Positions 19,903-31,641 of a stretch of 32,683 nt of DNA are shown piece after piece. The position numbers and the translations under genes are program-made. Source of the DNA: Desulfotignum sp. (GTDB taxonomy: Bacteria; Desulfobacterota; Desulfobacteria; Desulfobacterales; Desulfobacteraceae); assembly GCA_011390615.1 (NCBI GenBank), contig JAABSB010000022.1:1-32683 (forward strand), written 5' to 3'. The stretch's first letter is position 1; each line of letters opens with the position of its first letter. The notes under the pieces were generated by a model. That model searched no databases. It had not been told where the DNA came from and saw nothing but the letters and a program-made list of their open reading frames with translations.

Positions 19903-20613
19903 TCACATTTTCCTGCGTTTAAAAAAATCCCGTACAAAGGCAATATGGGTGTTCATGGACGCATAGGCTGTGTCCGGATCCCGGGATGTGATGGCTTCCA
20001 GGATGGCCCGGTGCTGGGTCAGTATTTTTTGGATATTGTCCGGATCTTCATATAAACTGGCCAGGTTCTCCCGGATACCATGGAACAGATAGTCATAAAA
20101 ATTGCGCATGATCAGGATGTGCAGCGGATTTTTGGCAGCATAGGCAATGGCCATGTGGAATGCTGTATCAGCTTCTGTGCCCAGACGTCCGGATTTCACT
20201 TCATGCTGCATTTCATCTATGCTCTGTATCAGGGCAGTGATATCGGTTTCATCCGCCCGCTGGGCAGCCAGGGAGGCAGCATTGCATTCCAGGCCCATCC
20301 GTACCTCAAGCAGGTCCACCAGGGAGGCGGACTGGGCTTCCATGGCCTTTGCCAGAGGGTTTTCCTGCACCGCTTCCATGGGTTTTACAAAGGTGCCCTG
20401 TCCTTGCTTCTGTGTAATCAGTCCCATGGTGACCAGCCGCTGGATGGCATCCCTGATGGTGGTGCGGGACACATTCATGGCCTGGGCCAGCTCCCGTTCG
20501 GTCATCAGTTTTTCTCCAGGCTTGAGCTTGCCCCTGTAAATGAGTTCCCGGATCTGATCCAGGACCTGATCTGAGATACGCTTGGGCTTTATGGGCTTTA
20601 TGGGTATGGTCAT
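19903..20613 (-). CDS. FadR-subfamily GntR transcriptional regulator (LldR/PdhR-like)
   Basis: The 236-residue protein has an N-terminal winged helix (about 12-75, with the GntR signature KPGEKLMTERELAQAMNVSRTTIRDAI). The C-terminal FCD effector domain (about 95-225) has likely metal-binding residues D149, H153, H201 and H223. FCD regulators such as LldR, PdhR and GlcC bind short organic acids and typically recognise TGGT-N3-ACCA. Two sites of just that kind lie in the glcD-dctP spacer about 3.7 kb away. The gene follows the SDR gene by 99 bp on the same strand and has its own predicted promoter. I infer that it represses both arms of the hydroxyacid cluster until substrate is present. Confidence 0.93.
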   Translation of the reverse strand: MTIPIKPIKPKRISDQVLDQIRELIYRGKLKPGEKLMTERELAQAMNVSRTTIRDAIQRLVTMGLITQKQGQGTFVKPMEAVQENPLAKAMEAQSASLVDLLEVRMGLECNAASLAAQRADETDITALIQSIDEMQHEVKSGRLGTEADTAFHMAIAYAAKNPLHILIMRNFYDYLFHGIRENLASLYEDPDNIQKILTQHRAILEAITSRDPDTAYASMNTHIAFVRDFFKRRKM

Positions 20614-20712: not shown

Positions 20713-21549
20713 CTAATAGGTCAATACCATTCCGCCGTCAAACAGAAGATCCCCGCCCACCAGATATTTTGAAAACCGGGAGAATCCAAATACAAAGAGA
20801 TTGGCTACCTCCACCGGTGACATCATCTCCTTGACCCGGGAGGCTCCCATCATGACATCGGTTACCACCTGCTGGGGGGTTATCCCCCGCTGTTTTGCCT
20901 GGGCAGCCACCTGGTTCAGTGCCAGGGGGGTTTTGACAAATCCGGAACTGATGGTAAAAGAACGGATCATGCCTTCCCCTTCAGCGGAGATGGACTGGCT
21001 CAGGGCCCGGAGCCCGAATTTGGTGATGTTGTAGACCGGTTTGTTTTTGGTGCAGATGTGGGCATGGACCGATGCCATGTTTGCAATGGCCCCGGCGCCT
21101 GCCTGTTTCATATGGGGTATCACCAGCTGTGACAAAAAAAATGGGGCCCGGAGCATGAGTTTCTGCATCAGATCATAGGTTTCCATGGGAAAATTTTCCA
21201 CCGCATCAATGTGCTGGATCCCGGCGATATTGGCCAAATATCTGATCTGCCCCAGCCCGGCTGCCTTTTCCACGGCATTTCTCACCTGTGCATCATCGGT
21301 GAGATCGGTTTTTATGAATGTGAAGGTGTCTCCGCCCAAGGCCCGGGCCATTTTACCGGTTTTTTCCCCTTCTGTCTCATTGATATCCAGGCCTGCCACG
21401 GTTACCCCGTTGACAGCCGCTGCAATGGACACAGCCCGTCCGATGCCGGTGCCGCAGCCGCTCACAATACAGACATTTTGTTTGCCAAAATCATCATCTT
21501 CAAGTATCAAGATATCTTTTTTGGTGATTTCAGGTTCTTTGATTTCCAT
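20713..21549 (-). CDS. SDR-family dehydrogenase, 3-hydroxybutyrate dehydrogenase-like
   Basis: The 278-residue protein is a classical short-chain dehydrogenase. It has the cofactor glycine motif SGCGTGIG (30-37), NIAG (107-110), catalytic S160 and the Y173-x3-K177 motif (YNITK). The stretch AGIQHIDAVENFP and the C-terminal GGDLLFDGG resemble NAD-dependent D-3-hydroxybutyrate dehydrogenases. That suggests a hydroxy acid or hydroxy-acyl substrate, but the substrate is not proven. An acidic 22-residue N-terminal extension precedes the fold. AAAGGAG marks the start. The gene lies 28 bp after glcF, so it is probably co-transcribed with glcD and glcF. An SDR is not a standard part of lactate operons. 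Confidence 0.88.
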   Translation of the reverse strand: MEIKEPEITKKDILILEDDDFGKQNVCIVSGCGTGIGRAVSIAAAVNGVTVAGLDINETEGEKTGKMARALGGDTFTFIKTDLTDDAQVRNAVEKAAGLGQIRYLANIAGIQHIDAVENFPMETYDLMQKLMLRAPFFLSQLVIPHMKQAGAGAIANMASVHAHICTKNKPVYNITKFGLRALSQSISAEGEGMIRSFTISSGFVKTPLALNQVAAQAKQRGITPQQVVTDVMMGASRVKEMMSPVEVANLFVFGFSRFSKYLVGGDLLFDGGMVLTY

Positions 21550-21577: not shown

Positions 21578-22900
21578 TTATGGGGTGTTTTTTTTAAGGC
21601 GCGATGCGTAAATTTCCATGGGATGCCGGACCGTTATGGATGATCCGGCCTTTCCCAGCATATCTGAGATCTGCATCATACAGGCCGGACACCCCGTGGA
21701 CACGGTGGTGCACCCGGTTTTTTCTATGTTTTCCCGCTTGATTGTTCCAATGGTGCTGGACAAGTCATAATGGTAGATATTGAAACTGCCGCCCATGCCG
21801 CAGCATTTATCGGAACCGGCCATTTCCTTCAATTGACAGCCGGCCGCGGAGATAACCTGCCGGGGCTGATCTGCTACGCCCAAAGACTTTTTCAGATGGC
21901 AGGGATCGTGGTAGGTCACGATGTCAGTTCCCGCGTCAGGCCCTGCTGGATCTGAAAGATTTTTCAGCGGGTCAATTCCCACCCGGTCCACCAAGAACTG
22001 GTTGATGTCCATGGTTTTTTCAGCCAGGGCCGTCAGTTTTTGCTGTATATTGTCGGATGGATTTTTGTAGACAGTCGGCCACAGTTTTTTAATGGTGGAG
22101 GTACAGGTGGCGCACGCGGTCACCAGGACATCAAAATCATGTTTTTCAAACAGGGCCAGGTTGTGGTCCACCAGGTGGGTAAAGCTGTCCCGATCACCTG
22201 ATGCCAGGGCGGGAATACCGCAGCATCCTTGGCCGGGGGGGATAATTACCCCCACCTTGTGATGGGCCAGGACTTTCAGGGATGCTTTGGCCACATTGGG
22301 AAAAATTTTGTCTATCAGACATCCGGTGAAAAAAGCGGCCCGGAGCCCTGAACCGGTGCTTGTAAATCCTTTTTCCGGCAGGGTTTTGTGAAACGGGGTG
22401 GTGCTCAGGGGCATGAAATGCCTGTTGGCCAGCAGTGGAGAGATCAGACGGGCACAGGACGTACCTTGGGCATCGGCAGAAGATTTTGTGAAAAGGCCCT
22501 GGAAGCGGCCGGCCCATTCCACCATAGCGTCGAACCGGCCTGGATTGGCCAGCAGTTGTCTGAAGATCAGTTTTTTGGCAGGGGACAGGCCTTTGTATTC
22601 CGCCAGGATGGCCCGTGCCTTGATGAAAATTTCCACCACGTTGACCCCGGAAGGGCAGTTTGCGGCACAGGACCCGCAGAGCAGGCACCGGTTCAGCCGT
22701 TCGTTCACCCCATCAGGATCCGTGAAAATATTATCCATCAGCCCGGTGAGCAGGGCCAGTTTGCCCCTGGCCACATCCGCCTCTTTGCGGGTCTGCTCAA
22801 ACAGGGGGCATACCGACTGGCACATGCCGCAGCGAATGCAGGTAACCAGTTGCTCTTCCAGCTCTTTTACCAGGGTTGCCAGTTCTTTCATGCCTGCCAT
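21578..22900 (-). CDS. glcF: GlcF/LutA-type (Fe-S)-binding subunit of a 2-hydroxyacid (probably D-lactate) dehydrogenase
   Basis: The 440-residue protein has two N-terminal [4Fe-4S] motifs, C21-x2-C-x2-C-x3-CP and C72-x2-C-x2-C-x3-CP. Two CCG (cysteine-rich) domains follow, shown by GQGCCGIPALASGD and DKCCGMGGSF with the partner motifs CATCTSTIKK and CPACMMQ. The CCG domains are those of heterodisulfide reductase B and LutA. It should take electrons from the FAD of the adjacent GlcD protein and pass them to the membrane pool or another carrier. The gene begins 7 bp after glcD ends. The pair matches the GlcD/GlcF-type D-lactate dehydrogenase of Desulfovibrio by architecture. ATGs at 22900 and 22891 are both possible. 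Confidence 0.93.
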   Translation of the reverse strand: MAGMKELATLVKELEEQLVTCIRCGMCQSVCPLFEQTRKEADVARGKLALLTGLMDNIFTDPDGVNERLNRCLLCGSCAANCPSGVNVVEIFIKARAILAEYKGLSPAKKLIFRQLLANPGRFDAMVEWAGRFQGLFTKSSADAQGTSCARLISPLLANRHFMPLSTTPFHKTLPEKGFTSTGSGLRAAFFTGCLIDKIFPNVAKASLKVLAHHKVGVIIPPGQGCCGIPALASGDRDSFTHLVDHNLALFEKHDFDVLVTACATCTSTIKKLWPTVYKNPSDNIQQKLTALAEKTMDINQFLVDRVGIDPLKNLSDPAGPDAGTDIVTYHDPCHLKKSLGVADQPRQVISAAGCQLKEMAGSDKCCGMGGSFNIYHYDLSSTIGTIKRENIEKTGCTTVSTGCPACMMQISDMLGKAGSSITVRHPMEIYASRLKKNTP

Positions 22901-22907
22901 TATTAGG

Positions 22908-24290
22908 TTATACTCCTGTTATTTTACCGGGGTTCAAGATGTTGCGGGGGTCTAAGGCAGCCCGCAGCTGCCTGGAAAACAAGATGGATGAATACCCGGC
23001 TTCCTTTTCCAGAAAAGGGGCTTTGGCAATGCCTGTGCCGTGCTCTCCGGAAAGGGTGCCTCCCATGGCCAGGGCCGTGTCAAAGATCTCTTCAATGGCC
23101 TGTTCCACCCGGTGAAATTCTTCCTTGTTTCTGCGGTCCGTGAGGATGGTGGGGTGGAGGTTGCCGTCCCCGGCATGGCCGAAAGTGCCGATATCAATCC
23201 GGTACTTTTTGGCAATATCCTGAAGGGCCCTTACCATGTCCGGGATTTTGCTTCTGGGAACCGTGGCATCCTCCAGCACCAGGGTGGGTTTAAGCTGGGC
23301 CAGGGCGGACAAAGCAGCTCTTCTGGCTGCCCAGATCCTGTCCCGCTGGGCATCATCTTTTGCCCTGTCAATGGTCCGTGCCCCCATTTTCAGGCACAGG
23401 GCCTTTACCTGTTCCGCCTCTTCGGCCACCACTGCAGGGTGTCCGTCCACCTCGATGAGCAGCAGGGCTGCCGCATCTGTGGGGAGTCCGGCTTTTGAGA
23501 AGTCTTCCACCGCCCGGATGGTGAAATTGTCCAGGATTTCCAGGGTGGCAGGCACAATACGCGCGGAAATGATACCGGCCACGGTTTCCGATGCCTGTTC
23601 AATGGTGTCATACACCGCCACCATGGCCTGCCTGTCCTTTGGGGCGGGGATGAGTTTGAGAATCACCTGGTCCAGGACCCCCAGGGTGCCCTCAGACCCC
23701 ACCATAAGCCCGGTGATATTATAGCCGGTGGCGCACTTTACTGTCCTGGAACCGGTTTTGATATAATTGCCCTGGCAGTCAAAAAACTGCAGCCCCATGA
23801 CATAATCCTTGGTCACGCCGTATTTGAGTCCCCGCAGCCCCCCGGCATTTTCCGCCACATTCCCGCCGATGGTGGAAACCGCCATGCTGCCCGGATCCGG
23901 CGGATAGAACAGCCCCAGTTTTTCCACTTCAGCCGCCAGGGTTGCGGTCACAACGCCTGGTTCCACCACCGCATACATGTCTGCTTCATTGATTTCAATG
24001 ATGCGGTTCATCCGTCCGGTAAGCACCACGATACCGGATGTCCGGGGAATGGTGCCGCCGGACAGATTGGTGCCAGATCCCCTGACCGTTATGGGGATAT
24101 GGTTTTCATGGCACAGGGCGATGATTTCACCGAGCTGGGTTGTGTTTTCGGGAATCACGGCAGCCGCAGGCATGACCGGGTCCAGCACTGCGGCATCATA
24201 GGAATAGGTGAGCATGTCTTCTTTCTGCGTCAGCAGGTGTTGGGGCCCCACAATTTTCTGGAGCGCATCCTGGATGGACCGGGGGATCAT
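22908..24290 (-). CDS. glcD: GlcD-type FAD-linked 2-hydroxyacid (probably D-lactate) dehydrogenase
   Basis: The 460-residue flavoprotein belongs to the VAO/PCMH superfamily. FAD-binding motifs include PITVRGSGTNLSGGTIP (about 66-82) and DPGSMAVSTIGGNVAENAGG. The C-terminal FAD-oxidase motifs FGHAGDGNLHPT and SGEHGTGIAKAPFL are intact. It oxidises 2-hydroxyacids such as D-lactate or glycolate to 2-oxoacids. I start at the ATG at 24290, which has AGAGGTG just upstream; the track's GTG at 24296 overlaps that ribosome-binding site. The gene is divergent from the TRAP transporter operon and has its own predicted promoter and operator. Glycolate cannot be excluded as substrate, but the lutC/lutBA neighbours favour lactate. 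Confidence 0.94.
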   Translation of the reverse strand: MIPRSIQDALQKIVGPQHLLTQKEDMLTYSYDAAVLDPVMPAAAVIPENTTQLGEIIALCHENHIPITVRGSGTNLSGGTIPRTSGIVVLTGRMNRIIEINEADMYAVVEPGVVTATLAAEVEKLGLFYPPDPGSMAVSTIGGNVAENAGGLRGLKYGVTKDYVMGLQFFDCQGNYIKTGSRTVKCATGYNITGLMVGSEGTLGVLDQVILKLIPAPKDRQAMVAVYDTIEQASETVAGIISARIVPATLEILDNFTIRAVEDFSKAGLPTDAAALLLIEVDGHPAVVAEEAEQVKALCLKMGARTIDRAKDDAQRDRIWAARRAALSALAQLKPTLVLEDATVPRSKIPDMVRALQDIAKKYRIDIGTFGHAGDGNLHPTILTDRRNKEEFHRVEQAIEEIFDTALAMGGTLSGEHGTGIAKAPFLEKEAGYSSILFSRQLRAALDPRNILNPGKITGV

Positions 24291-24309
24291 AGGCACCTCT
24301 TTTGTTTTA

Positions 24310-24320
24310 TGGTACTACCA
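24310..24320. promoter_or_regulatory. FadR/LldR-type operator 1 (glcD side)
   Basis: TGGTACTACCA is an 11-bp palindrome around a central base and fits TGGT-N3-ACCA. It lies 4 bp downstream of the predicted glcD -10 box, so bound repressor would cover the transcription start. Confidence 0.75.
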
Positions 24321-24324
24321 ATTT

Positions 24325-24353
24325 ACTATCAGGTAAATTTTCGGTGTTGTCAA
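24325..24353 (-). promoter_or_regulatory. Predicted glcD-glcF-SDR promoter
   Basis: On the minus strand TTGACA (24348-24353) and GATAGT (24325-24330) are spaced by exactly 17 bp. Operator 1 follows at once. Confidence 0.6.
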
Positions 24354-24479
24354 ATGGTTATTTGATAGCACAGCCTCTGGTTACGCACAGTCATCAAAAA
24401 ATATAACCATTTGTTTTTTCTGAATATAATATCGTATAGCAGACTTTCTGACAAAAAACAAACAAAAATAATTTTTTTC

Positions 24480-24508
24480 TTGACAAAGCAGTCCATATGG
24501 ATTTTAGT
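24480..24508 (+). promoter_or_regulatory. Predicted dctPQM promoter
   Basis: TTGACA (24480-24485) is followed after 17 bp by TTTAGT (24503-24508); TAGTAT two bases later is an alternative -10. Operator 2 follows immediately. Confidence 0.55.
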
Positions 24509-24509
24509 A

Positions 24510-24522
24510 TTGGTATTACCAA
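24510..24522. promoter_or_regulatory. FadR/LldR-type operator 2 (dctP side)
   Basis: TTGGTATTACCAA is a perfect 13-bp palindrome around a central base and matches the TTGGT-N3-ACCAA sites of LldR/PdhR-type regulators. It overlaps the expected transcription start of the TRAP operon. Confidence 0.8.
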
Positions 24523-24677
24523 GAAAGCCAGCAGTATTTAACAGAAAAATGACCATTTTGGACTTACCGGAATACCTTTAAGACCTATCCGGGAAAGGAG
24601 GCAAAAAATCATCTCAGGCAATATCTGGAGACAGGCGAGTGAATAATCAATTTTTTTTTTAAAGGACGGAGGAACGC

Positions 24678-25826
24678 ATGAAAAAAGCATTAAGCATAGT
24701 GGTAACCCTTTTGATGGCAGTTGTCTTTATCTGCGGCACTGCCCATGCCAAACGCGAAAAATTCGGGGAAGACCCCAGGGCAAAAGAAGCAAAACGGGTA
24801 TCATTCAAGACATCGGATGAAAAAATCCGGTGGAAAATGGTTATGCCCTGGTCCAAAGGGCTTTTGTTCTATGATATTGCATCCCATTTTGCCGACAGTG
24901 TCCGTCTGGCATCTGCCGGCCGTCTGGATATCAAGCCGTTTGCAGCAGGGGAACTGGTACCTGCCATGCAGAGTTTTGATGCGGTAAGCACGGGTGCGGC
25001 TGAAGTGGGCCATGACTGGCCCGGTTACTGGAAAGGCAAAAATGAGGCCTTTGTGGCCCTGGCCTCTGTGCCTTTCGGCCTGGATGCTGAGTTGTACAAC
25101 ATCTGGCTGTATGAAAGGGGCGGTGTGGAGATGATGCAGGAAATATATGGCCAGTTCAACCTGTTTGCCCTCCCCGGCGGCCAGTGCGGCCAGGAAATGG
25201 GGCTTTCCTCCAATAAAAGAGCCACCAGTATGGCAGATTTCAAAGGCATGAGAATCCGTACGCCAGGCTGGTTCATGGACATTATGAACAACCTGGGCGC
25301 ATCCGTGTCTCCCCTGCCCGGCGGCGAAGTCTACCTGGCCCTGGAGCGGGGCGTGATTGACGCAGCAGAATTCTCCTCTCCGGCCATCAACTATCCCATG
25401 GGATTTGATGATGTCACCAAGTACGTGATTCAACCGGGCGTGCATCAGCCCGGTATCCAGTGTGCGTTGTTTTTCAACAAAGATGCCTATGAAAAGCTCC
25501 CCGAAGACCTGAAATGGATCATTGATATCGCTGCCAAGGAAACCCAGCTCTGGAGTTACAACTGGATCAACAATCTGAACGCCAAAGCCATAAAGCTGTT
25601 CAAGGAAAAAGTGGAGTTTGTCCACATGGATAAAGAAACCCTGATCGAGTTCCGGAAAACCACCAAAGAGTATATGGACTCTATCAAGGCAAAATACCCG
25701 GATGCCAAGAAAATTCTGGATTCCCACGACCAGCTGATCGAAGATTATGCAGACTGGCGCAAGGAGCGCGGCGGGGCAACCCCCTGGCCTTATGAAACCT
25801 ATATCAGCGGCCAGATCCATGAATAA
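24678..25826 (+). CDS. dctP: TRAP transporter substrate-binding protein (DctP family)
   Basis: The 382-residue periplasmic protein begins with a signal peptide (MKKALSIVVTLLMAVVFICGTAHA, likely cut after A24). The mature part has the DctP fold with FKGMRIRTPG near residue 193, whose arginine normally grips the substrate carboxylate, and PLPGGEVYLALERGVIDAAEF near 213-233. It resembles the TakP/FcbT1-like branch that binds 2-oxo and hydroxy acids, including lactate. A GGAGG ribosome-binding site precedes the ATG. Location between lactate dehydrogenase genes makes lactate or a related hydroxyacid the most likely ligand, by inference. A large minus-strand ORF over this gene is a shadow. Confidence 0.94.
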   Translation: MKKALSIVVTLLMAVVFICGTAHAKREKFGEDPRAKEAKRVSFKTSDEKIRWKMVMPWSKGLLFYDIASHFADSVRLASAGRLDIKPFAAGELVPAMQSFDAVSTGAAEVGHDWPGYWKGKNEAFVALASVPFGLDAELYNIWLYERGGVEMMQEIYGQFNLFALPGGQCGQEMGLSSNKRATSMADFKGMRIRTPGWFMDIMNNLGASVSPLPGGEVYLALERGVIDAAEFSSPAINYPMGFDDVTKYVIQPGVHQPGIQCALFFNKDAYEKLPEDLKWIIDIAAKETQLWSYNWINNLNAKAIKLFKEKVEFVHMDKETLIEFRKTTKEYMDSIKAKYPDAKKILDSHDQLIEDYADWRKERGGATPWPYETYISGQIHE

Positions 25827-25968: not shown

Positions 25969-26484
25969 ATGTTGGCATCGTTAGCAAACAACCTGGAAAA
26001 ATTCATCCGCAAGCAGGGGGATGTGACCTCTTTTCTCGTATATCCGCTGCTGATCATCGTAGTATATGAGGTGTTCATGCGGTATGTATTAAATGCACCC
26101 ACCACCTGGGGATTTGAGGCTACCACCTTTTTATACGGGCTGCACTACATGTTCGGGTTCTCTTATGCAGATGTCCATGGTGCCCATGTAAAGGTGGATA
26201 TTTTCAGCTCCATGGCCTCGGAAAAAGTGCAGGCGATTCTCAGCATTATCACCAATCTGGTCCTGTTCATGCCCGTGACCATCTGCCTGACCCTGTGGGG
26301 GATTAAATACGCATATAACTCCACCCTGGGCCTTGAAGTGAATTCCACCTCCTGGGCCCCTCCCATCTGGCCGTTGAAGATATTGATGGCATTGTGCCTG
26401 GTATTTTTACTGCTCCAGGGCATCGCCAATCTGTTAAAGGATATCCATTCACTCAAACAACAAGGAAGAAAGGTTAACCCATGA
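25969..26484 (+). CDS. dctQ: TRAP transporter small permease (DctQ family)
   Basis: This 171-residue inner-membrane protein has four predicted helices, with the second to fourth around FLYGLHYMFGFSYADV, AILSIITNLVLFMPVTICLTLWG and ILMALCLVFLLLQGIANLL. The motif ADVHGAHVKVDIF is typical of the DctQ family. AAAAGGAAACC precedes the ATG. Its last four bases overlap the start of dctM (ATGA), giving coupled translation. DctQ stabilises DctM and completes the Na+-driven uptake complex. Confidence 0.93.
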   Translation: MLASLANNLEKFIRKQGDVTSFLVYPLLIIVVYEVFMRYVLNAPTTWGFEATTFLYGLHYMFGFSYADVHGAHVKVDIFSSMASEKVQAILSIITNLVLFMPVTICLTLWGIKYAYNSTLGLEVNSTSWAPPIWPLKILMALCLVFLLLQGIANLLKDIHSLKQQGRKVNP

Positions 26485-27821
26485 GTCTTGAATTCATGAC
26501 TGTGGCCATGTTTGTCACCCTTATTTTCGCCATCATGCTGGGGCATCCACTGGCCTATACCCTGGCAGCGGTTGCCACTCTGTTCGGCCTGATCGACAAC
26601 GGGTTCAATATCCCCATTCTGTTTGAGATGTTTATCAACAATACCTGGGGGTTGATGGAAAACTACACCCTGGTGGCCATCCCCTTGTTTATTCTCATGG
26701 CCCAGCTTCTGGACAGATCCAAGGTGTCTGAGGCCCTGTTTGAATCCATGTACGTGGTGCTGGGCAGTATCAAGGGCGGCCTGGGCCTGGCAGTGGTACT
26801 GGTGTGTACGGTATTTGCCGCCACCACGGGGATTATCGGGGCATCGGTGGTGGCCATGGGGCTGCTGGCCACCCCGGCCCTCATGAACAAAGGCTACCAG
26901 AAAGAAATGACGGCAGGTATCATCTGCGCTTCAGGCACCCTGGGTATTCTGATTCCGCCCTCCATCATGATGGTGGTGTACGGCGGACTCACGGGCATGA
27001 AGGAAACGTCTGTGGGCAATCTGTTTGCCGGTGCCATCTTCCCGGGTCTTTTGCTGGCAGGCCTGTATTTCGCCTATATCCTCATTCGCTGTAATATCAA
27101 CCCGACACTGGGTCCTCCTATTTCAAAAGATGAGGCATCCGGCTACACGGCAGCCCAGAAATGGGCCATGACCCTGAAATCTCTGGTCCCGCCCCTGGCA
27201 TTGATCCTGGCGGTCATGGGAACGATCCTCGGCGGGGTGGCCACCCCCACGGAAGCCGCCGGTCTGGGGGCCTTCGGTGCCGTACTTCTGGCCTTTTTCA
27301 ACAGAAAGCTCAACTGGACCGTGCTCAAGGAAAGTGCCTATGCCACGTTGAAAACCACCTCCATGGTCATGATGCTGTTCATCGGCGGCAAATTTTTCTC
27401 CGCCGTTTTTCTGAGCATGGGCGGCGGGGATGTGGTAGCGGATCTGCTCATCGGTTCGGGCATGAACCAGTGGATTATTCTGTTCATCATGATGTTCATC
27501 GTGTTCATCATGGGCATGTTTATTGATTGGGCTGCCATCCTGCTGGTGACAGTACCCATCTTTCTGCCCATTGCCATTGAACTGGGATTTGATCCGTTGT
27601 GGTTCTCCCTGCTGCTGTGCGTGAATCTCCAGACCTCTTTTCTCACCCCGCCCTTTGGGTATGCCCTGTTTTATTTCAAGGGTGTGGCGCCGCCGCAATT
27701 TACCATGATGCATATTTACAGAGGTATCATGCCTTTCGTCCTGCTGCAGTTGATCAGTATTGCATTACTGTGCCTGTTCCCGTCTCTGGTTACCTGGCTG
27801 CCGGGTGTGTTTTTTGGATAA
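26481..27821 (+). CDS. dctM: TRAP transporter large permease (DctM family)
   Basis: The 446-residue protein carries about twelve hydrophobic helices and forms the ion-coupled transport channel. Family signatures include GHPLAYTLAAVATLFGL near the start, ASGTLGILIPPSIMMVVYG near 150-170 and the second repeat ending FLTPPFGYALFYFKG. It works with DctP and DctQ to import an organic anion with Na+. The inserted LFEMFINNTWGLMENYTLVAIPLF segment matches the mannitol/chloroaromatic/lactate-type DctM branch, which agrees with the DctP assignment. Confidence 0.95.
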   Translation: MSLEFMTVAMFVTLIFAIMLGHPLAYTLAAVATLFGLIDNGFNIPILFEMFINNTWGLMENYTLVAIPLFILMAQLLDRSKVSEALFESMYVVLGSIKGGLGLAVVLVCTVFAATTGIIGASVVAMGLLATPALMNKGYQKEMTAGIICASGTLGILIPPSIMMVVYGGLTGMKETSVGNLFAGAIFPGLLLAGLYFAYILIRCNINPTLGPPISKDEASGYTAAQKWAMTLKSLVPPLALILAVMGTILGGVATPTEAAGLGAFGAVLLAFFNRKLNWTVLKESAYATLKTTSMVMMLFIGGKFFSAVFLSMGGGDVVADLLIGSGMNQWIILFIMMFIVFIMGMFIDWAAILLVTVPIFLPIAIELGFDPLWFSLLLCVNLQTSFLTPPFGYALFYFKGVAPPQFTMMHIYRGIMPFVLLQLISIALLCLFPSLVTWLPGVFFG

Positions 27822-27968: not shown

Positions 27969-28586
27969 ATGGTGAATACCACTACCGGCAGTACAAAGGA
28001 ACTGGCTGCAGTGTTTACACAAAAAGCCTCCCTGGTGAGTGCCTGTGTCCATGAGGCAAAAGACCGGACAGAGGCCATGGACAAAACCCTTGCACTGCTG
28101 GCCCAAAAACCGCCTCTGGACCCGCAGATGGCATCTGGAAAAAAACAGGATCCATCCAAAAGAATTCTGGCAGCCCCCAACCTGGATCATGACGGATTCC
28201 AGCAGCTGTCTGACCTGTGCCGGGCATTTCCCCATATTCACCTGATCCGGGACAGGCTGCGTGATTTTCCCGGGGGCATTGACATGGGGGTGACCACTGC
28301 GGATTTCGGTATTGCAGACACCGGCACCCTGGTCATCAATTCCAATGACGAACACACCCGCCTGGCCACCATGCTCTGTGAGGTGCATGTGGCCATACTG
28401 GCTGTGTCGGATATCCGGGAAACCGCCCTTTCCATGACCAAAGAACTGGAAATGCTGGTCGGCCGGAAGGGATCCTACACCGCCTTTGTCACTGGCGCCA
28501 GCCGGACCGCCGATATTGAGCGGGTTTTGGCCATCGGGGTGCATGGACCCCTAGAGTTGCATATCATCCTGGTGGAGGAAAAATAA
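27969..28586 (+). CDS. lutC: LutC-type LUD-domain lactate utilisation protein
   Basis: The 205-residue protein is a LUD domain of the LutC/LldG/YkgG family. The diagnostic segment MGVTTADFGIADTGTLVINS lies near residues 100-119, and the C-terminal TGASRTADIERVLAIGVHGP motif is intact. LutC is a required part of the LutABC L-lactate oxidase complex, though its exact role is unclear. GGGAGG precedes the ATG. Its stop codon overlaps the next gene's ATG by one base (TAATG), so the two are translated together. Confidence 0.95.
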   Translation: MVNTTTGSTKELAAVFTQKASLVSACVHEAKDRTEAMDKTLALLAQKPPLDPQMASGKKQDPSKRILAAPNLDHDGFQQLSDLCRAFPHIHLIRDRLRDFPGGIDMGVTTADFGIADTGTLVINSNDEHTRLATMLCEVHVAILAVSDIRETALSMTKELEMLVGRKGSYTAFVTGASRTADIERVLAIGVHGPLELHIILVEEK

Positions 28587-30745
28587 TGGAGAGCCACGAA
28601 AACCTCAAATCCTATAAACACCGTCTGGATGATGCCCTGGACAACCATTTTCTGCGCCAGGCCATGGACAAATTCGCCGTGGCCTACCGCACGTCCAGAG
28701 AAAACGCCTTTGCCGGCATGGATGTGGCAGACCTGATCCAGCAGGTAGCAGATATCAAGGCGGCAGCTATTGCAGACAGCAAAGCTCTGCTGGAACGGTT
28801 TATCAAAAAGGCAACGGCACATGGTGTTCATGTGCACCTGGCAGATACGGCAGAAGATGCCAACCGCATCATCGGTGAGATCGCCCAAAAAACCGGTTCA
28901 AAAAAGATTGTCAAATCAAAATCCATGACCGCAGAAGAGATCCATCTCAACAGATGGCTGGAAAATCTGGGGGTGGAGGTCACAGAAACCGATCTGGGGG
29001 AATGGATTGTTCAGCTGCGCAAAGAAGGCCCTTCCCACATGGTCATGCCGGCCATCCACCTGTCACGCTTCCAGGTCGCGGACCTGTTTTCCGATGTCAC
29101 CGGAACAGACCAGGATGCAGAGATCGACCGGCTGGTCAAGGTGGCCAGAAAAGAGCTGCGGGAAAAATTTGTGCAAGCGGATATGGGCATTACCGGTGCC
29201 AACTATGCTTTGGCTGACACCGGCACCATCGGCATTGCCACCAATGAGGGCAATGCACGGCTGGTCACCACCCTGCCGAAGGTGCACGTGGCCCTGGTGG
29301 GCATTGACAAACTGCTGCCCACCCTGGCTGATGCATTGACCGTGAACCGGATTCTGCCCAAAAACGCCACCGGCCAGGCCATCACCTCCTATGTCACCTG
29401 GATCACCGGGCCGTCTGAATGCACCACCGCCCCGTCCGGAAAACGGGAAATGCACATCGTGTTTCTGGACAACGGCCGCAGCAAAATTGCGGCAGATCCG
29501 GTGTTCGCCCAGGTGCTCCAGTGTGTGCGGTGCGGGGCCTGCGCCAATGTGTGCCCGGTGTACCGCATGGTGGGGGGCCACCAGATGGGACACATCTATA
29601 TCGGGGCCATCGGCCTGATCACCACCTATTTTTTCCACGGCATAGAAAATGCCAAAAATCTGGTGCAGAACTGCACCAACTGCGGGGCGTGCAAGGCGGT
29701 GTGTGCCGGCGGCATCGACCTGCCCCACCTGATCAAGGAGATCCATGCACGGATTCAGGATGAAGCCGGGCATCCCCTGCAGAGCCTGCTGCTGGGCAAG
29801 GTACTCAAGAGCAGAAAGCTGTTTCATTCTCTTTTGCGCACGGCCCACCTGGCCCAGAAACCGCTGCTGGATAAAAAAGAGAAACCCTATCTGCGGCACC
29901 TGCCCATGATTTTTTCTTCGGATCACAATTTCAGAAGATTGCCGGCCATTGCGGATGTGCCGTTCCGGGACCGGTTTGAAAAATTGCATAAGCCAACGGA
30001 CAATCCCAGGTTCACCATTGCGCTTTTTTCCGGATGTGTTCAGGATTTTGTCTATCCAGAACATCTGGAAGCCGCCATGAAAGGGTTTGCAATGCACAAC
30101 ATCCATGTGACATTCCCCATGGGGCAGTCCTGCTGCGGCCTGCCTGCCGTGAGCATGGGGGAAAAATCAGCGGCCCGGGATGTGGCCCTCCAGAACCTTG
30201 ATGCGGTTGACCTGGATACGGTGGATTACATTGTGACCCTGTGCGCTTCCTGCGCCTCCCATCTTACGCACGGTGTGCCCAAACTGCTCAAGGACTATGC
30301 CCCCAAAAAAGCGGCGGCATTTGCTGACAAGGTGGTGCCGTATTCGGTGTTCATGAACGATATTGTGGGCATTGCATCTGCGGTCAGAACTGGCGCGGAT
30401 GTCGGCCGGAAAACCGCGTTTCACTCTCCCTGCCACCTGTGCCGGGGCCTGGGGGTGCACAACACCCCCCATGAGCTGATTGAAAAATCGGGAAACCAGT
30501 ATGTTCCCACAGATGAAGAAGAAACCTGCTGCGGGTTCGGCGGCAGTTTTTCCACCACCTTCCCGGCGGTGTCCAATGAAATTCTCACCAGAAAACTGGA
30601 TGATGTAACAGAATCCGGTGCCGATCTCCTGGTAACCGAATGTCCGGGGTGCGTGCTCCAGCTCCGGGGCGGGGTTGCCAAACAGGGCAGAAAATTCACG
30701 GTGTGTCACCTGTCTGAACTGCTGTATCCCCAATCGGAACCCTGA
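28586..30745 (+). CDS. lutBA: Fused LutB-LutA iron-sulfur L-lactate dehydrogenase subunit
   Basis: The 719-residue protein is a natural fusion. Residues about 60-300 are a LUD domain with MGITGANYALADTGTIGIATNEGNARL. Two [4Fe-4S] motifs follow at C313/316/319/323 (CVRCGACANVCP) and C363/366/369/373. The second reads CTNCGACKAVCAGG and lacks the usual proline after the last cysteine. Residues about 475-719 are LutA-like with two CCG domains: C484, C516-C517 and CASC at 553-556, then C616, C648-C649 and CPGC at 686-689. LutB is normally about 470 and LutA about 240 residues, so the sum fits. Desulfovibrio vulgaris has a similar fused protein beside its LutC. With LutC it should oxidise L-lactate to pyruvate. 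Confidence 0.95.
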   Translation: MESHENLKSYKHRLDDALDNHFLRQAMDKFAVAYRTSRENAFAGMDVADLIQQVADIKAAAIADSKALLERFIKKATAHGVHVHLADTAEDANRIIGEIAQKTGSKKIVKSKSMTAEEIHLNRWLENLGVEVTETDLGEWIVQLRKEGPSHMVMPAIHLSRFQVADLFSDVTGTDQDAEIDRLVKVARKELREKFVQADMGITGANYALADTGTIGIATNEGNARLVTTLPKVHVALVGIDKLLPTLADALTVNRILPKNATGQAITSYVTWITGPSECTTAPSGKREMHIVFLDNGRSKIAADPVFAQVLQCVRCGACANVCPVYRMVGGHQMGHIYIGAIGLITTYFFHGIENAKNLVQNCTNCGACKAVCAGGIDLPHLIKEIHARIQDEAGHPLQSLLLGKVLKSRKLFHSLLRTAHLAQKPLLDKKEKPYLRHLPMIFSSDHNFRRLPAIADVPFRDRFEKLHKPTDNPRFTIALFSGCVQDFVYPEHLEAAMKGFAMHNIHVTFPMGQSCCGLPAVSMGEKSAARDVALQNLDAVDLDTVDYIVTLCASCASHLTHGVPKLLKDYAPKKAAAFADKVVPYSVFMNDIVGIASAVRTGADVGRKTAFHSPCHLCRGLGVHNTPHELIEKSGNQYVPTDEEETCCGFGGSFSTTFPAVSNEILTRKLDDVTESGADLLVTECPGCVLQLRGGVAKQGRKFTVCHLSELLYPQSEP

Positions 30746-30855: not shown

Positions 30856-31641
30856 ATGCAGACCCCGAAACGACATCGTATTCAACTGCCGCAAACTTCC
30901 GCCAGCAGCCTGTCCCAGGATGAAGCGTACTTTTATGTGTATACATCAGATAAAGAAAAAATCAAACTGCGGTTCCATGATTATGACAAAATATATGACA
31001 TGCCCGGGCTGTATGAACAGATATTTTATGACCGCCTCAAGTGTGTTTCACCTGTCAAGGTGGCGGAAATTCTGAAATCCGCCATCAACCAGACCAATGA
31101 AAATTTTACGGAACTGCGGGTGCTGGATCTGGGCGCAGGAAACGGGTTAATGGGAGAAGCCTTTAAAAAATACGGCGTCGCCCGTCTGGTGGGCGTAGAT
31201 ATCATACCTGAAGCCAAAACAGCAACGGAGCGGGACAGGCCCCATCTGTACGATGCCTACTATGTATCCGATTTTTGCAATCTGTCCACAGATGAAAAAG
31301 AAGAATACCGGTCCTGGTCTTTGAACTGCCTGACCGTTGTTGCGGCCCTGGGTTTCGGTGATATCCCCACCAAAGCATTTGTTGAAGCATTCAACGTGAT
31401 TCAGTCCGAAGGATGGGTGGGATTCAACATCAAGGAGACCTTTTTGAACGAATCTGATAATTCCGGATTTTCCCGCATGATCCGGGAACTGATTTTTTCT
31501 AAATATATGGACATGTATCATCTGGAGCGTTACCGGCATCGCCTGTCCATAGAAGGAGAACCCCTCTATTACTACGCCATCGCTGCAAGGAAAAACGCAG
31601 ATATTCCTGAAGAACTTGTCGAAAAATTTTCCGCACAGTAA
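30856..31641 (+). CDS. Class I SAM-dependent methyltransferase, target unknown
   Basis: This 261-residue protein has a Rossmann-type methyltransferase core. Motif I is VLDLGAGNGLMGEAF near residues 89-103, and the acidic end of strand 2 is VGVDIIPEAK. The following part NCLTVVAALGFGDIPTKAF and the loop GWVGFNIKETFL fit motifs IV-VI. The N-terminal 75 residues (YVYTSDKEKIKLRFHDYDKIYDMPGLYEQ) form a helical cap often seen in small-molecule methyltransferases. AAAGGAGAACA precedes the ATG. The gene stands alone after the lactate cluster, 110 bp from lutBA. I do not recognise the specific family or substrate. Confidence 0.82.
   Translation: MQTPKRHRIQLPQTSASSLSQDEAYFYVYTSDKEKIKLRFHDYDKIYDMPGLYEQIFYDRLKCVSPVKVAEILKSAINQTNENFTELRVLDLGAGNGLMGEAFKKYGVARLVGVDIIPEAKTATERDRPHLYDAYYVSDFCNLSTDEKEEYRSWSLNCLTVVAALGFGDIPTKAFVEAFNVIQSEGWVGFNIKETFLNESDNSGFSRMIRELIFSKYMDMYHLERYRHRLSIEGEPLYYYAIAARKNADIPEELVEKFSAQ

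Follow-up and report, generated by a model that had tools for sequence, protein, structure and literature searches.

Predicted FadR-type operators over both arms of a probable lactate divergon in Desulfotignum sp.

Lactate is a main food of many sulfate reducers, and the genes that probably import and oxidise it are at this locus divided between two divergent operons. In Desulfovibrio, the regulation of lactate use leads back to LurR, a two-component regulator (PMC6456213), whereas in the present group the evidence speaks for a FadR-type switch whose operator code is clear. We consider it highly probable that a lactate divergon is controlled from the spacer between glcD and dctP, with FadR-type dimers that repress both arms from two operators, O1 and O3, and are released by lactate. 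The window, by which we mean the whole stretch of 32,683 nucleotides that was analysed, comes from a contig of Desulfotignum sp. and carries glcD, glcF, an SDR gene and gntR in this order on the minus arm and dctPQM, a LUD gene and ldhH on the plus arm:

19903..20613, minus: gntR, GntR/FCD regulator of the FadR subfamily, last gene of the glcD operon and proposed binder of O1 and O3
20713..21549, minus: SDR, short-chain dehydrogenase, nearest to 3-hydroxybutyrate dehydrogenase models and under their cut-offs
21578..22900, minus: GlcF/LdhH-type iron-sulfur subunit
22908..24290, minus: GlcD-like FAD-linked oxidase, probable D-lactate (2-hydroxyacid) dehydrogenase, likelier start the ATG at 24290
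24309..24321, minus: O1 operator, 13-mer TTGGTAGTACCAT, covering the predicted transcription start of the glcD-glcF-SDR-gntR operon
24325..24353, minus: predicted glcD-side promoter TTGACA-N17-GATAGT (TTGACA 24353-24348, GATAGT 24330-24325)
24365..24377, plus: position of operator O2 in relatives, in the window decayed to ATAGCACAGCCTC
24451..24479, plus: A-tract/T-tract, UP-element-like, conserved, directly upstream of the dctP-side -35
24480..24508, plus: predicted dctP-side promoter TTGACA-N17-TTTAGT (TTGACA 24480-24485, TTTAGT 24503-24508)
24510..24522, plus: O3 operator, TTGGTATTACCAA, perfect 13-bp palindrome, covering the predicted transcription start of the dctPQM-ldhGH operon
24678..25826, plus: DctP, TRAP solute-binding protein, with a ketoacid-binding protein and the lactate-binding TTHA0766 as PDB relatives
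25969..26484, plus: DctQ, TRAP small permease
26481..27821, plus: DctM, TRAP large permease
27969..28586, plus: LUD-domain protein, LutC/LdhG-like
28586..30745, plus: LdhH, L-lactate dehydrogenase (quinone) large subunit (NF045670)

O1 and O3 are two near-identical 13-bp palindromes that can be read directly in the spacer. On the minus strand O1 has the 11-mer TGGTAGTACCA (24320-24310), and the 11-bp core of O3 is at 24511-24521. The centres (24315 and 24516) are 201 bp apart, which corrects the 202 bp given earlier. Scanning the window with TTGGTANTACCAA returned O1 and O3 as the two best sites and as the sole matches with fewer than three mismatches. In the 3.02-Mb assembly (83% complete), an IUPAC pattern scan with mismatches detected four sites with at most one mismatch, two of which are O1 and O3; from the density of the other two, about 0.0003 such sites would be expected per 387 bp. 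Those other two lie inside predicted coding frames, and a wider regulon in this genome, whose assembly is 83% complete, was rejected. The form of the sites, TTGGT-ATT-ACCAA, has TKGT/ACMA boxes with 3 nt between GT and AC, as in the sites of LldR, PdhR and GlcC (PMC4494728).

The outward-facing pair of TTGACA-N17 promoter-like sites reads as the original prediction described it, and a palindrome does follow each of them within 1-4 bp (4 nt after GATAGT on the minus strand, 1 nt after TTTAGT on the plus strand). Consensus alone gives weak support, the 12 promoter-like sites being close to the 10.4 +/- 3.3 of shuffled sequences. A search for near-perfect -35/-10 patterns gave no match, and the plus-strand promoter fails the rule of the tool because TTTAGT is without an A at position 2. 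It is conservation, not consensus, that supports both predicted promoters. All 29 loci have a correctly spaced dctP-side -35 that differs from TTGACA by at most one base, usually 29-30 nt before the operator, compared to 12 of 29 for the glcD side, mainly in Desulfotignum and part of Desulfamplus; in the window the glcD-side -35 is perfect. The description of the two promoters as mirror images consequently holds in Desulfotignum and some Desulfamplus and fails elsewhere. The length of the spacer also changes slightly. The listed GTG start of glcD (24296) overlaps the gene's own ribosome-binding site, and the ATG at 24290 is the likelier start, with similar AGG..ATGATC starts in relatives; the spacer would therefore be 387 bp and not the 381 bp assumed earlier.

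The proposed binder carries an N-terminal GntR winged helix (PF00392, 75.6 bits, cut-off 27) and a C-terminal FCD domain (PF07729, 102.2 bits, cut-off 24.3), and by these domains it belongs to the FadR subfamily of the GntR family. Its nearest curated models are LldR (NF007741, 170.9 bits against a cut-off of 311) and PdhR (NF007001, 161 against 330), both under their cut-offs, and the GlcC model gave 128 bits against 301. The regulator would be LldR-like in its working, yet with the cut-off failed it is not filed as LldR. Residues R40, R50, T51, T52 and R54 align with R35, R45, T46, T47 and R49, the DNA-contact residues of E. coli FadR, and the regulator carries D149, H153, H201 and H223, an Asp-His-His-His set that fits the metal/carboxylate site of the FCD fold.

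Phylogenetic footprinting, proposed with the original prediction as the analysis that could refute it, came out in its favour. We found 44 relatives of the regulator in genome contigs, the closest from Desulfotignum, and a survey of the order detected the regulator in 86 of 390 genomes, from which further regions were drawn. When the spacers of Desulfobacterales loci with an orthologous gntR were aligned, O1 and O3 stood out as conservation islands. The strict pair pattern was found in 27 of 86 family genomes and the reversed-pattern control in 0 of 86. The pair was present in 26 of the 38 family genomes with gntR and in 1 of the 48 without it (Fisher p 8e-12, uncorrected for relatedness). In the lone genome with a pair and no regulator the contig ends inside glcD, while several regulator-bearing genomes without a strict pair have a spacing of 221-225 bp, outside the range of the pattern, or contigs ending early. 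Divergent glcD spacers of relatives have two or three operator-type sites; L013 and L016 are examples with three, and the cultured Desulfospira joergensenii (L023) and Desulfocicer vacuolatum (L018) share the arrangement of the window. Where glcD lies downstream of a gene in the same direction, no site was found in the short preceding gap, and where the gene order is rearranged, sites occur ahead of another gene, for example dctP.

These data support O1 and O3 as predicted binding sites of the neighbouring GntR protein, and the earlier reading of them as FadR-type operators for this protein agrees with its domains, its nearest models and the co-occurrence of pair and gene. Nine genes with an FCD domain are present in the window's genome, and the operator motif might be shared with any of them. 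Even so, we regard it as very improbable that some other FadR-type protein of the cell, and not the product of the neighbouring gene, binds O1 and O3, as the pair and this gntR co-occur in the comparison of 86 genomes and the gene is itself part of the operon that would be controlled.

Other arrangements were seen in a few loci. In L025 and L062 the SDR gene instead of dctP faces glcD, the spacer is shorter, its two operators lie 189-190 bp from each other, and another gntR copy is found a few kb off. In another family of the order (L110, L112-L115), near-adjacent tandem operators, 16 bp centre to centre, sit between LUD/ldhH genes and gntR, which is a different arrangement with a related regulator.

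The genes were originally described as a hydroxyacid cluster. This description can be kept and refined to lactate, as the plus arm also contains the LdhG-like and LdhH genes (27969-30745). LdhH scored 1033.5 bits against NF045670, over the curated cut-off of 800, which marks a lactate-utilisation locus, and DctP resembles ketoacid- and lactate-binding TRAP proteins; because of these two the cluster is best read as one for lactate uptake and the oxidation of D- and L-lactate. The exact substrates of GlcD and SDR are less firmly indicated, as neither protein reaches any of the curated cut-offs shown: the nearest model is glycolate oxidase for GlcD (528, cut-off 568) and 3-hydroxybutyrate dehydrogenase for SDR (182, cut-off 307). 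From these near matches one could propose that the ligand and pathway concern another hydroxyacid, glycolate or 3-hydroxybutyrate. We find this quite improbable, as LdhH is clearly over its L-lactate dehydrogenase cut-off and ldhH is near the regulator in many relatives where SDR was undetected. On gene content, lactate would likewise be the effector of the regulator. Directly 3' of ldhH (30856-31641) is a methyltransferase-like gene with weak matches to curated models.

If the preferred reading is correct, dimers of the regulator would occupy O1 and O3, both of which overlap the predicted transcription start of their arm, and would keep RNA polymerase off the two promoters as long as lactate, or a 2-hydroxy- or 2-oxoacid related to it, is in short supply. 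Once the FCD domain has taken up the acid, the dimers would leave the DNA, and the TRAP importer, L-lactate dehydrogenase, D-lactate dehydrogenase, SDR and the regulator would be switched on together. The regulator should also control itself, because gntR is the last gene of the glcD operon. Control of both arms, as originally predicted, is backed by the operators over both predicted starts and by their conservation, and repression itself is what we infer from them. In most other genera O1 persists though the glcD-side TTGACA is missing, so simple promoter occlusion may not apply to that arm everywhere.

The distance between the two operators is unusually constant. O1 and O3 are 198-203 bp apart in most genera and 198-225 bp overall for dctP divergons, and among representatives no interval varied less (CV 0.046, with 0.124 for O3-dctP and 1.16 for glcD-O1), while about 93 bp of its interior have a likeness between genera near shuffle level. 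The inter-site distance is nearly independent of intergenic length, with a slope of 0.08 (r 0.61, n=25, sequences related), as in cooperative FadR divergons (slope 0.05; PMC4494728). In those divergons the sites are near mid-spacer (PMC4494728), unlike here, where the pair is off the middle: O1 is usually 10-55 bp from glcD and O3 149-232 bp from dctP. About half of the family loci have in addition O2, 55-59 bp from O1 and mostly as ATGGTNNTACCTT. In Desulfotignum it forms a graded series, from presence (L007, L059) through damage (L006, L001) to loss in the window, which offers a natural series for probing the role of the third site. O2, the fixed O1-O3 spacing and the unequal -35 conservation of the two arms are additions to the original prediction.

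What the constant spacing means can be argued in several ways. We give about an even chance to the explanation that O1 and O3 are independent operators, each repressing its own promoter, and that the spacing reflects back-to-back promoters with little room. The overlap of each operator with its own predicted start is consistent with this, as is the conserved dctP promoter, which occupies much of the O3-side half of the spacer. Outside the family the inter-site spacing is variable, mostly 131-161 bp and in one case 103, which also fits independent sites. Within the family, in contrast, the interval is held though the intervening sequence is not, and many relatives have an extra site at a fixed distance, both of which count against independent operators. 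These observations would suit cooperation, in which dimers on O1, O3 and, if the locus has it, O2 touch and bend the spacer so that the promoters are switched as one. Such looping is compatible with the fixed spacing, and it is favoured by the slope, which is nearer to that of the cooperative class than to the 0.49 of the independent class (PMC4494728), and by O1-O3 lengths of 190, 200 and 221, which differ by about one or two helical turns; it has also been suggested for E. coli LldR, according to a citation in PMC7804116. However, the 10.5-bp helical phasing, weak in the family (p~0.07 over six length clusters) and absent outside it (p~0.16), was rejected as proof of looping, lengths of 213 and 225 fit poorly, and the O1-O2 spacing of 56-57 bp is about half a turn out of phase. 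In a designed library of E. coli promoters, LldR sites did not give repression of the looping type (PMC7804116), and relatedness inflates the apparent constancy of the spacing. Cooperation or looping is in our opinion possible but doubtful.

A dual regulator, which stays bound and with lactate activates at least the glcD arm through O2-like upstream sites, would account for the position of O2, which in many relatives is on the upstream side of the glcD promoter region, several of these relatives being without the glcD-side TTGACA, and for E. coli LldR an activation of lldPRD has been reported (PMC10272880). As the window has a decayed O2 together with a perfect glcD-side -35, and as O1 over the start site is in the position of a repressor, we consider this unlikely. 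The broadest version of cooperation would be a single complex, in which, across this family of sulfate reducers, a FadR-type protein sits on two or three operators whose distances are fixed and turns the import of lactate and the two lactate dehydrogenases on and off as one, the middle operator having been lost among the Desulfotignum relatives of the window. We put this forward tentatively, as a rather unlikely arrangement on present evidence.

Parts of this picture are already known. Double FadR-type sites between divergent operons have been described (PMC4494728), and FadR-type lactate regulators are known from E. coli (PMC10272880) and predicted in Desulfovibrio (PMC6456213). The double-site divergons of the FadR subfamily resemble the window in having two sites between divergent operons, one of which holds the regulator gene, and in the near-constant inter-site distance (PMC4494728). 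They differ in that the sites of the window lie over two predicted starts and its relatives have a third site at a fixed distance. E. coli LldR (lldPRD) is likewise a FadR-subfamily lactate regulator with two sites per target region and a TGGT/ACCA palindrome spaced by 3 nt (LldR box AAnTGGTCnGACCAnTT; PMC10272880). In addition to the difference in model score, the central bases are A-N-T in the window and C-N-G in LldR, and in the window two divergent operons are served, with one site on the predicted start of each. PdhR and GlcC of E. coli share the subfamily and the half-site spacing, but the window regulator fails their models and their target genes are other ones.

Among sulfate reducers, a close parallel is the lactate cluster of Desulfococcus multivorans, also of the Desulfobacteraceae as then defined, in which a GntR gene (dmul_C17480) adjoins the lactate oxidation genes (PMC5109826). 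There the regulator is found with a lactate permease, ldhAB and lutABC, and the proteins are formed specifically on lactate; the importer is an LldP permease in contrast to the TRAP importer of the window (PMC5109826). In Desulfovibrio vulgaris, both LldR (DVU2875, predicted FadR-family) and LurR are concerned with the control of lactate oxidation, but LurR belongs to the sigma-54-dependent response regulators and its site is unrelated, and DVU2875 controls a different gene set (PMC6456213). No paper describing the operator pair was found in the literature covered, which left out most subscription journals. The operator code could be used for finding lactate regulons in other genomes, and the fixed spacing together with a third site that is gained or lost provides a testable case of how double-operator divergons work.

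The spacer has some further elements. An inverted repeat, CAAATGGTTAT...ATAACCATTTG, was rejected as an operator, as no matched changes were found even within Desulfotignum. A structured RNA in the long dctP leader was likewise rejected, with no Rfam family, no covarying pairs and a fold no better than in shuffled sequences (z +1.9). At 24430-24450, about 30-50 bp before the dctP-side -35, is the moderately conserved ATANCAGA, possibly a site for another factor. At 24555-24605 in the dctP leader, some 85 nt ahead of dctP, is the conserved block TTGG.TT.C.GGAA.ACC ... TCCGGGAAAGGAGG, and its AAAGGAGG resembles a ribosome-binding site with no start codon after it. Speculatively, the repeated GGA motifs of this leader might suit a CsrA-type protein.
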